Origin: Alphaproteobacteria bacterium
GTDB lineage: Bacteria; Pseudomonadota; Alphaproteobacteria; RF32; CAG-239
Length of the DNA stretch: 64,000 nt
NCBI GenBank assembly: GCA_015062305.1
Contig: SUUX01000001.1
Location: forward strand, 90,808 to 154,807
Direction of reading: 5' to 3'
Below are positions 4,564 to 33,425 of this stretch, piece by piece (position 1 is the first letter of the stretch; every line of letters starts with the position of its first letter). A program made the translations under genes and the position numbers. Under the pieces are notes generated by a model. It was not told the DNA's origin and made no database searches. It saw nothing but the letters and a program-made list of their open reading frames with translations.

Positions 4564-6159
4564 ATGAACAAAAGATGGTGGGCTGCTTGTTTTTTGCTAT
4601 TGTTGCTGTTTGCCTCAAACATAACAAATGCACAAGTCGTAAAAAGATCTGCTCATGTAGAAGTGAGCGGTTTTAGCCAATTTGATGCAATAAACATCAG
4701 CCAACCAATTGATGTTTTGATAAAGTTCAAAATCTTAGACAATTGGCACATATATAGCCAAAATCCCGGAGAAATTGGAATGCCAACACAGGTTTTGTGG
4801 CAATTGCCTCTGGGGGCAACTATATTGGCAGAGCAATGGAGTGTAGATGAAGAATTTGATAATGATGGCTTAAAACAAAGAGGATACTCAGGTGTTGCAT
4901 ATTATAAAGCCACATTGTCTTTTGCCCCAGAAACTATTTTTGAACAACCAATTGCTGCAAAAATCAAATGGTTGGCTTGTGCTGATGAGTGTTATCCGGA
5001 GCAAAAGGTTTTGGAATTTGATCTGCCGGTGTCTGATAGAGAACAAATGGATACTCATTTGTGGCAAAAAGAGATATCTGAGGCAGAACCTTGGTTTCAT
5101 AAAAGAGAATCGAGTGAAGAAACTGTTTTGTGGCTAATGTTGGGGTTGGCTTTTGTCGGCGGAATTGTAATGAATGCAATGCCTTGCGTGTTTCCGGTGT
5201 TGACCCTAAAACTAATTTCTTTGACTCAAGGAACTCAAAATATCAAAAAAAGCAGAATTGACGCTTTGTTTTATGCCCTGGGAGTGGTGATTTGCTTTTT
5301 ACTTATTGCTTCTATACTTTGGTGGTTGCGCAAAAGCGGCGAACTTATCGGATGGGGTTTTCAACTACAGTCCCCTTGGTTTGTGGGATGTATGGCTTTT
5401 TTGTTTATAATTATTGCTCTGATGCTATTGGACTGTATTGCTCTAAACATTCCTTGGCTAAATAACTTGCAATCTGCAAAAATTTCTACCAGTGGCTCTT
5501 TTGCTACAGGATTATTGGCTGTGTTAATTGCAAGCCCTTGTACTGCTCCATTTATGGCTGCGGCTGTAGGATATGCACTGGCAGCACCAATTGATGAATA
5601 TTTTCAGATATTTTTTGCTTTGGCATTAGGGTATGCCATGCCTTTTGTTTTGATTGGGAGTTTTCCGCAGCTATTAAAAAAAGTTTTGCCAAAACCAGGA
5701 CGTTGGATGCTGGTCTTGAAAAAAATATTTGCAATTCCGATGTTCTTAACAGCATTATGGTTGTTTTGGGTATTATATCATCAAATGTTGCCAAGCAAAG
5801 AAGCTGGTGTAAATTGGCAAAATTATAACAAACAAAAAGTAGAAATTTTGGTGGAACAACAAAAACCCGTGTTTATAGATTTTACGGCCAAATGGTGTTT
5901 GACTTGTATGCTAAATAAAAAAACAACATTGCAAACATCTGAGTTTGCTAAATTGGCAGAAGAACTAAAGCTCAATTTGTTTGTGGCTGATTGGACAAAT
6001 AATGAAAAAGAGGTTTCTGAAGCTTTGAATTTTTATGGCAGGAACTCTGTGCCATTGTATGTTTTTTATGATGGTACAAATTTTGATTATATAATTCTGC
6101 CTCAGATTTTGAGTGTGGGAATCATTAGAGAAGAAATACAAAAAAAACTCCGAAAATAA
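4564..6159 (+). CDS. Thiol:disulfide interchange protein DsbD-like (protein-disulfide reductase)
   Basis: 531 aa; signal peptide, DsbD-alpha-like N-terminus, TM domain with NAMPCVFPVLTLK and SPCTAPFMAAA, C-terminal thioredoxin-like FIDFTAKWCLTCMLNKK. Confidence 0.9.
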   Translation: MNKRWWAACFLLLLLFASNITNAQVVKRSAHVEVSGFSQFDAINISQPIDVLIKFKILDNWHIYSQNPGEIGMPTQVLWQLPLGATILAEQWSVDEEFDNDGLKQRGYSGVAYYKATLSFAPETIFEQPIAAKIKWLACADECYPEQKVLEFDLPVSDREQMDTHLWQKEISEAEPWFHKRESSEETVLWLMLGLAFVGGIVMNAMPCVFPVLTLKLISLTQGTQNIKKSRIDALFYALGVVICFLLIASILWWLRKSGELIGWGFQLQSPWFVGCMAFLFIIIALMLLDCIALNIPWLNNLQSAKISTSGSFATGLLAVLIASPCTAPFMAAAVGYALAAPIDEYFQIFFALALGYAMPFVLIGSFPQLLKKVLPKPGRWMLVLKKIFAIPMFLTALWLFWVLYHQMLPSKEAGVNWQNYNKQKVEILVEQQKPVFIDFTAKWCLTCMLNKKTTLQTSEFAKLAEELKLNLFVADWTNNEKEVSEALNFYGRNSVPLYVFYDGTNFDYIILPQILSVGIIREEIQKKLRK

Positions 6160-7104: not shown

Positions 7105-7180
7105 GCGTGCGTAGCTCAGTTGGTAGAGCAACTGACTCTTAATCAGTGGGTCCGGGGTTCGAGCCCCCGCGCGCGTACCA
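7105..7180 (+). tRNA. tRNA-Lys(CTT), CCA encoded
   Basis: 76-nt cloverleaf: GCGTGCG acceptor pairing CGCGCGT, anticodon loop CTCTTAA (CTT), TTCGAGC T-loop, 3' ACCA. Confidence 0.96.
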
Positions 7181-7384
7181 TTTATATTTTAGGTGACCTC
7201 TTTCAAGATGGTCACTTTTTTTATGTCTGTGGATAGGCTCTAACCCCTCCGGGGTTCGTCTGGCTCATAAGCTCATTTCTTTCGCTAACTCGCTGCGGTC
7301 ACTCGGGTTGTAACATTTGCTTGGTTGGCTTTGTCAGCCAAGTCGCAAATTAACAAGCCTCTCGCCTGTCGTGAAAATCGCCAA
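7162..7384. repeat. Direct repeat copy 1 (includes last 19 nt of tRNA-Lys)
   Basis: 7162-7384 aligns to 7409-7631 at a constant offset of 247 bp; the one difference I found is g7373 versus t7620. Confidence 0.95.
7192..7222 (+). terminator. Rho-independent terminator of tRNA-Lys
   Basis: GTGACC TCTT TC AAGA T GGTCAC followed by TTTTTTT; a second copy lies in the downstream duplicate about 247 bp on. Confidence 0.7.
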
Positions 7385-7408
7385 GAGCAATTGGCGATTT
7401 TTGCCTCC

Positions 7409-7631
7409 AGCCCCCGCGCGCGTACCATTTATATTTTAGGTGACCTCTTTCAAGATGGTCACTTTTTTTATGTCTGTGGATAGGCTCTAACCCCTCCGGG
7501 GTTCGTCTGGCTCATAAGCTCATTTCTTTCGCTAACTCGCTGCGGTCACTCGGGTTGTAACATTTGCTTGGTTGGCTTTGTCAGCCAAGTCGCAAATTAA
7601 CAAGCCTCTCGCCTGTCGTTAAAATCGCCAA
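7409..7631. repeat. Direct repeat copy 2 (duplicated tRNA-Lys 3' end plus flank)
   Basis: Begins agcccccgcgcgcgtacca (tRNA-Lys 3' end) and repeats the terminator and downstream ~180 bp of copy 1. Confidence 0.95.
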
Positions 7632-32797: not shown

Positions 32798-32934
32798 CTT
32801 TCAATAAACATTGTTATCGTATAATTAAATCATTTGTGTATAGTATTGCAAAGTTGTAAATAAATTATAAAAAAAAGCTTGACGATATGAAAACTTTAAG
32901 TTAAAAGTCTTTTTCAGAACGGTAGTTTACCTAT

Positions 32935-33036
32935 GGAGAGGTGGCGAAAAGGTTTAATGCAGCGGTCTTGGAATCGCAGATGGCCGGAGGCCCAAACCGG
33001 AGAGGCAGAAACGGAGTTTCTGAGACGGTTTTCTCC
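32935..33036 (+). repeat. tRNA-Ser-derived repeat unit 1 (tRNA 5' half plus structured non-tRNA 3' half)
   Basis: GGAGAGGTGGCGAAAAGGTTTAATGCAGCGGTCTTG then non-tRNA sequence ending TTTCTCC; period 126 bp to unit 2. Confidence 0.9.
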
Positions 33037-33060
33037 TTTGATTATTATAAATGCACCTAT

Positions 33061-33162
33061 GGAGAGGTGGCAGAGCGGTTTAATGCAGCGGTCTTGGAAT
33101 CGCAGATGGCCGGAGGCCCAAACCGGAGAAGCAGAAACGAAGTTTCTGAGACGGTTTTCTCC
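33061..33162 (+). repeat. tRNA-Ser-derived repeat unit 2
   Basis: Same 5' half as the genuine tRNA-Ser up to GGTCTTG; 3' part matches unit 1 with a few substitutions; 126 bp before the genuine tRNA start. Confidence 0.9.
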
Positions 33163-33186
33163 TTTGATTATTATAAACACACCTAT

Positions 33187-33276
33187 GGAGAGGTGGCAGA
33201 GCGGTTTAATGCAGCGGTCTTGAAAACCGTCGAGGGGGCGACCCCTCCGTGAGTTCGAATCTCACTCTCTCCGCCA
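33187..33276 (+). tRNA. tRNA-Ser(TGA), CCA encoded
   Basis: 90-nt class II tRNA: acceptor GGAGAGG / CTCTCC, anticodon loop CTTGAAA, long variable arm, GTGAGTTCGAATCTCAC T-arm, GCCA. Confidence 0.96.
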
Positions 33277-33283
33277 ATATAAT

Positions 33284-33313
33284 AGCCCAACTATTATGGT
33301 TGGGCTTTTTTTG
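33284..33313 (+). terminator. Rho-independent terminator of tRNA-Ser
   Basis: AGCCCAAC-tattatg-GTTGGGCTTTTTTT. Confidence 0.85.
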
Positions 33314-33425
33314 TTTCTATTTTCTATGGCGGAAACGTCTCAAACAGCGCTTGTCTTAAAGACAAGCTTGTTTTCGTCAATTTAAGAGATTGATTTTGTT
33401 AAATTTATATGAAAAGAAAAAAATA

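Follow-up and report, generated by a model that had tools for sequence, protein, structure and literature searches.

Tandem tRNA-Ser-derived modules ahead of tRNA-Ser(UGA) in a family of gut and rumen Alphaproteobacteria, candidate minimal elements of tRNA genes

The tRNA-Ser(TGA) gene considered here lies in a 64,000-nucleotide stretch of an Alphaproteobacteria genome, which we call the window, and is preceded by two tandem 126-bp units that sit between a promoter-like site and the intact tRNA. The locus, all on the forward strand, begins with that site, TTGACG-N16-TTAAAA (32879-32906), recognized by sequence only; a CTTGAC-N16/17-(T/A)AAAA motif also stands ahead of the array, or of the bare tRNA, in relatives. 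Downstream follow hybrid unit 1 (32935-33060) and hybrid unit 2 (33061-33186), each made of a tRNA-Ser 5′ part, inserts and an AT-rich spacer, then tRNA-Ser(TGA) itself (33187-33276; called by ARAGORN, and 55 bits against the Rfam tRNA model), and finally the computed intrinsic terminator of the tRNA transcript (33284-33312). A first-pass annotation of this DNA had placed three starts at 32935, 33061 and 33187, exactly 126 bp apart, the last being an intact tRNA-Ser and the first two units nearly alike, and the repeat search, ARAGORN and Rfam bear this out, positions 32929-33054 and 33055-33180 being 94% identical. Both units match R1, a covariance model of the unit 3′ half (unit 1 with 84.4 bits), and a 45-nt 5′ part is common to the units and tRNA-Ser(TGA). 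The array has no further matches elsewhere in its own genome (1.47 Mb), a plasmid search with it gave none, and a phage search returned tRNA-Ser matches and short pieces only. The open reading frames at the array overlap nothing other than the tRNA-like repeats, and we rejected them as spurious read-through of tRNA-Ser (MERWQSGLMQRS..).

Within unit 1, the tRNA-Ser-like 5′ half runs from the acceptor 5′ strand to the TTG of the anticodon loop (32935-32970, by alignment to the tRNA), with a D-arm altered relative to tRNA-Ser (GCGAAAAGG). Divergence begins where the annotation had put it, at GGTCTTG|gaatcgc in the units versus GGTCTTG|aaaaccg in the tRNA. Beyond this point come hairpin A, ATC-GCA-GAT (32973-32981), which covaries in relatives; hairpin B, GGCC-GGA-GGCC (32982-32992), all four pairs of which change on both sides in relatives; and, predicted by folding, an outer stem of AAACCG (32994-32999) and CGGTTT (33026-33031) around hairpin D, CAGAAAC-GGA-GTTTCTG (33006-33022), which occupies the place of the tRNA variable arm and, by comparison, has been re-made in each lineage. 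Unit 2 repeats this anatomy. The hairpins had all been described before, with GGA or GAA as the loop of hairpin D, and all are present. That description of the non-tRNA half was accurate, but it had overlooked two pieces of tRNA there: AAACCG(TCGAGGG), which is the tRNA anticodon-stem 3′ strand, and GACGGTTTTC (33024-33033), the reverse complement of the anticodon-loop and 3′-stem sequence GAAAACCGTC of tRNA-Ser and near-invariant in relatives.

Comparing 58 distinct units, we found a common plan. After the tRNA-Ser-like 5′ half, which reaches the TTG of the anticodon loop, come GGA and hairpins A (ATC..GAT) and B (GGCC..GGCC). A single C or T then leads to AAAYCGTCG and to hairpin D, which takes the variable-arm place and often reads AAAC-GAA-GTTT; next are usually ACGGTTTTC, an AT-rich spacer and the start of the next tRNA. 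ACGGTTTTC, which repeats the anticodon 3′ strand in inverted form, occurs in most genera and is missing from the units of g8 and G105. In g8, g12, g13, g15 and G105 the inside of hairpin B is extended to about 30-40 nt, and units that measure 126 bp in the window reach about 175 bp in relatives. Many units have a broken D-stem (TTAGAGCGG instead of TGCAGCGG), so recent copying of the tRNA does not by itself account for the 5′ half, and the tRNA T-arm and 3′ acceptor strand are absent. The annotation had further proposed that TTTCTCC at the unit end pairs with the 5′ GGAGAGG like an acceptor stem. This closure exists in some lineages (G000, G039, G102, G041/G046, and also G047/G049 and SIG55/RGIG4267, where both ends have changed and still match), but we rejected it as a feature of the family, since it is absent in G051, G057, G005/G006 and most g13/g15 units. 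The spacer often carries ATTATTGTGAA, and a motif like it is conserved just ahead of each tRNA start, for example in loci L007, L012, L019, L085 and L154; it persists in some genomes that have no structured part (G160, G101). Genus g13 (L099-L101, L106, L110, L114, L172-L174) has a further conserved leader element, GTATTTGCT..TGTT/GCTGT....CGCAACGG, between the promoter and the unit or tRNA-Ser.

The search of related genomes that the annotation had called for showed that at least 49 of the 169 family genomes, spread over 10 of 16 genera, have units immediately ahead of tRNA-Ser(TGA). One of these genera, g3, is counted from a single genome with units, G023 (loci L054/L083); its contig is g2-like, with an array matching that of G001 of g2, and is possibly a contaminant. 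R1 by itself matches 43 of the 169 genomes, in 8 of 16 genera, and DNA searches likewise showed the unit ahead of tRNA-Ser in other species. Beyond the R1 matches, about 75 further tRNA-Ser upstream regions were read directly; this added divergent full units in G088, G095, G105, G108, G110 and G112, and truncated remnants in G002, G036, G037, G055, G064, G104, G115, G135, G158 and G165. Every complete unit locus inspected ends in tRNA-Ser(TGA), and the upstream module was found at tRNA-Ser(UGA) only. No units were found outside the family within the order, and a class sample of 395 genomes gave, outside the family, one weak match (G355) with no tRNA nearby, which we regard as chance; a pattern scan of contigs also produced several chance matches beside true ones. 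The locus records are metagenome-assembled genomes of gut and rumen Alphaproteobacteria, probably in GTDB order RF32 or close to it. Many tRNA-Ser loci lie at contig ends (G071, G079, G118, G134, G138); assembly seems to fail across the arrays, and the true copy numbers are probably higher than those counted. Downstream of tRNA-Ser in L129 (G035 C62) there is an Illumina-adapter-like sequence within the contig, probably an assembly artefact.

For the folding check that had been proposed, the energies of single units are ordinary against shuffles (z = -0.05 and -1.0), a score that is uninformative alone, but the comparative evidence for pairing is significant. In an 18-sequence alignment of the short unit type, 97.2% of cells are paired versus 87.2% in shuffles, and none of 500 shuffles scored as high. 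Hairpin B shows double changes at all four of its pairs, none broken, and is 100% paired; hairpin A changes in concert to GTC/GAC in G049, G122 and G132 and to GCC/GGC in G044, while ACC/GGT in G105 is a manual reading of a sequence for which the automatic parse chose another register. Wobbles are G·T (13) rather than A·C (2), so the folding strand is the tRNA-sense strand; the bias gives the strand only and fits RNA or single-stranded DNA of that strand equally. The anticodon-like stem GCGGT/ATCGC used in R1 is paired in 95.6% of cells, without a double change, and is broken in G003, G004 and G044. Wherever both can form, the 3′ hairpin AAACCG:CGGTTT is the more stable conformer (46 of 46 units, by a median of 7.6 kcal/mol), and we therefore rejected the tRNA-like anticodon stem as the dominant fold. 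Judged by these substitution patterns, the structure of the unit is under selection.

Inheritance was followed on an HflX protein tree from 81 genomes, with a full or partial unit counted as presence. Distances between units track those between HflX proteins (Mantel r = 0.56, reached in 0 of 2000 permutations), so inheritance is mainly vertical; G102, whose nearest unit is that of G041, is a possible exception. At the same time, presence and absence change at least 20 times on the tree, by which the unit is dispensable. Three pairs differ cleanly in the unit and keep the rest of the locus: G065 vs G073, G101 vs G095 and G048 vs G049. G065 has the promoter and leader of the G073 type fused directly to the tRNA, with no unit, and in G101 and G048 the spacer is retained and the structured part gone, which points to loss there. 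Copies are near-identical within a genome and divergent between genomes, which is the pattern that growing and shrinking tandem arrays should give, and the 5′-most copies are often truncated. In nearly all close pairs the core is better conserved than the spacer, the mis-split pairs G117/G118 and G161/G163 being left out of this comparison.

Related modules, which we call X and Y, occur at tRNA genes of the same family. Downstream of tRNA-Ser(TGA), a second CTCTCCGCCA stands after the terminator in 24 of 91 loci, of which one (L061) is a chimera and the others are mostly X or Y modules. In X, an inverted acceptor end (TGGCGGAGA) comes first and a direct acceptor end last. Its core, CGGGCAGAGCT..AAGATATCATTGG..CAGA..CTTAGC, is strongly conserved, and X stands behind tRNA-Ser(TGA) in L195, L080, L134, L193, L143, L144, L148, L164-L166, L168, L180, L119 and L120. 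In the window, positions 33327-33378 (TGGCGGAAACGTCTCAAACAGCGC..GCTTGTTTTCGTC, forward strand) may be a truncated remnant of such a downstream module, by-eye similarity to complete X modules being the guide. Y opens with an inverted T-arm. A T-arm follows whose 5′ strand and TTCGA are separated from its 3′ strand by a conserved insert (CTACAAGCGAAAGGCGGACGGGAGTACGCCGGT..), and an acceptor end closes the module. R3, a model of Y, matches 155 of the 169 family genomes, which have 1-20 copies apiece, and one further genome among 196 sampled from the class; a weak Y match in another family adjoins tRNA-Glu (G360, L310). The tRNA genes that Y follows are those for Gln, Glu, Ser, Lys, Pro, Arg, Trp, Met and Gly, and its flanks match the local tRNA (loci L278-L316, and L317-L322 in the genome of the window). 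Against Rfam, tRNA alone scores above the gathering threshold at X and Y loci, and a hammerhead-like motif in Y (CGAAA / GAUGAG) was rejected, its core not being conserved.

Other arrangements were seen beside these. In the tRNA-Lys(CTT) region of the window (7105-7480), a T-loop insert of about 170 bp is flanked by two copies of the tRNA 3′ end and terminator (7159-7480, forward strand; 75 bp, 99%, spacing 247), a Y-like layout; scanned with R3, the duplication gave no match. The L061 chimera, behind tRNA-Ser at about 4824-4889 on the reverse strand, has an anticodon arm with a 23-nt hairpin A/B insert, continues as an ordinary tRNA-Ser through variable arm, T-arm and CCA, and is a product of recombination between unit and tRNA. 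In L322 (C11:46743-48195 of the genome of the window), a tRNA-Val-like 3′ fragment starting in the anticodon loop lies about 1 kb from a 428-aa integrase ORF (C11:45926-46402), with a Y module beyond it; the fragment is likely an ordinary tRNA island end.

Our favoured explanation, to which we give a probability of roughly 0.4, is that the modules are tiny elements targeted to tRNA genes that rebuild the part of the tRNA they displace. The array would then be two tandem copies of a non-coding module occupying the anticodon loop of tRNA-Ser(UGA), each breaking the gene after ...GGTCTTG and ending in a spacer and a fresh tRNA 5′ half, and because the module supplies this half, the adjoining tRNA would stay intact. 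Transcription of the tRNA would run from the upstream promoter through the module, whose sense strand forms hairpins A, B and D, with the inverted copy of the anticodon 3′ strand usually closing the fold. X at the acceptor end and Y in the T loop, each of which combines hairpins with a piece of tRNA in both direct and inverted orientation, would belong to the same wider class. As to the spread of the modules and their action as RNA, we infer that tRNA loops are where they recombine or are copied, with a recombinase assisting in trans, and that the fold persists because the spreading requires it or because it is read out as RNA. The patchy distribution would fit losses in which direct tRNA repeats recombine with one another.

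The mobile-element part of this reading develops a suggestion in the first-pass annotation, a mobile-element scar at the anticodon loop. It is strengthened by the sibling modules in the T loop and at the acceptor end, but the scar itself does not hold, since units with conserved and covarying cores are not dead scars. Islands in tRNA genes attach at the anticodon loop, the T loop and the T/acceptor junction (PMC4383910), and the three break points of our modules match these sublocations, with fragments on the expected side and strand. By the criteria for integrative islands of the Islander class (PMC4383910; island tRNA fragments, PMC9897764), the array has the intact tDNA and a same-strand fragment on the correct side at an accepted sublocation, and the 126-bp units have neither an integrase in the interval nor a length of 2-200 kb. 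The modules resemble islands in that a restored, intact tRNA gene stands beside a displaced fragment whose side and strand are as expected, but they measure 126-175 bp rather than at least 2 kb, carry no integrase, contain conserved covarying hairpins, form tandem arrays without cargo and, in Y, have flanks fitted to many tRNA species; a 5′ fragment such as theirs is rare among islands (159 of 3919). No module contains a recombinase gene. PF00589 genes number 2-8 per genome, with counts that do not track module number, and in the genome of the window they lie on other contigs or far from the array; no circular form, transposition event or cargo-bearing copy was seen. Further observations count against the element reading: the upstream module is confined to tRNA-Ser(UGA), the core is better conserved than the spacer in almost all close pairs, the divergence that tracks HflX suggests long residence and possibly a host function, and the inverted arm and T-stem of Y, which fit each local tRNA, are not explained by a simple integrase element.

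The main rival, which we rate somewhat lower and which accounts well for the conserved upstream unit, is that the module is instead a cis-acting leader RNA, a structured 5′ domain that tunes the transcription, folding or processing of tRNA-Ser(UGA), perhaps with GCGGU:ACCGU (the tRNA-like anticodon stem) and ACCG:CGGUUU (the 3′ hairpin) as the arms of an attenuation- or timing-type switch. A sense-strand structure that covaries does lie in every case between the tRNA and a promoter-like site, the latter judged from its letters; core identity is 94-99% in pairs whose HflX proteins are only 78-87% identical; and the two helices are mutually exclusive, both being preserved by 5′-side wobble changes. 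An attenuator co-transcribed with tRNA-Ser had been proposed before, and its position and exclusive helices leave room for this, but the greater stability of the 3′ hairpin makes a switch doubtful, the stem is trailed by TTTT(C) only, with no strong terminator, the inverted anticodon strand is missing from the g8 and G105 units, the unit is dispensable, and X and Y modules past terminators at other tRNAs are left unexplained. That released units of about 100 nt act in trans on tRNA-Ser or partners, through GACGGUUUUC or the tRNA-like 5′ half, seems improbable. GACGGUUUUC is complementary to the anticodon loop and stem of tRNA-Ser(UGA), and ACGGTTTTC is retained where its local partner drifts (AAACCGGAG, AAATCG, AAACTG), but this strand pairs better locally and is absent in g8 and G105, and entry of RNase P is unlikely without a T-arm.

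Lowest of all we rate a functionless origin, with an old pseudo-tRNA fragment amplified by unequal crossing-over. Direct repeats would account for the copy-number changes, the losses and the truncated 5′-most copies, but the compensatory changes across genera already largely refute it, and hairpin D is re-made per lineage while the core stays more conserved than the spacer. A neutral duplication unique to one strain, named beforehand as what would speak against the annotation, is excluded by the units in many family genomes. Its idea of a tRNA-like RNA family survives as a conserved, covarying family, but one with no T-arm, no 3′ acceptor strand and an often broken D-stem; overall, its interpretations are partly supported.

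Among known systems, the nearest kinds are island tRNA fragments and the distal 178-bp repeats of E. coli tyrT (rtT RNA). As at tyrT, tandem repeats beside a tRNA gene carry a piece of that tRNA (this also holds for tRNA-Lys at 7159-7480), but there it is the tRNA-Tyr 3′ end, downstream, and here the tRNA-Ser 5′ half, upstream, with an anticodon-loop insert. An Rfam scan of the array at the gathering threshold matched tRNA only, and a permissive threshold likewise brought up no other family, rtT among them if that family was included. Like tRNA-like structures and pseudogenes, the units have a 5′ half, anticodon-stem strands and a variable-arm-like hairpin that correspond to tRNA-Ser; unlike them, they have no T-arm or acceptor 3′ strand, and two hairpins replace the anticodon loop. 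Nor do they pass as canonical tRNA genes: ARAGORN and Rfam call the downstream tRNA only, and cloverleaf, T-arm and CCA-side acceptor strand are wanting. tRNA-derived SINEs join a tRNA-related head to an unrelated body, a layout the units share, but the units are never dispersed, occur at the parent tRNA gene only and show no tail or reverse-transcriptase partner. T-boxes and other leader attenuators are structured leaders with alternative helices; the units have no T-box conserved elements, Rfam match or strong terminator, and they precede a tRNA gene, whereas the T-box controls mRNA. The open literature searched, of incomplete coverage, contained no description of such units. We tentatively propose an undescribed class of minimal, protein-free elements in the tRNA genes of a whole family, with 100-200 bp modules specific to anticodon loop, T loop or acceptor end that would rebuild the displaced tRNA part, carry an inverted local tRNA arm and propagate via folded single strands (RNA or ssDNA).

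Testable objects come from the covariance models, the unoccupied sites and the multi-copy sibling present in almost all genomes of the family, and the modules caution against taking every tRNA fragment beside a tRNA gene for an island scar. tRNA genes are classic docking sites of mobile DNA, and their known tenants are kilobases long and bring integrases. A protein-free, structured tenant of about 100 bp that keeps its tRNA intact and persists in at least 10 genera would be either a minimal parasite of tRNA genes or a new layer of tRNA-operon RNA.
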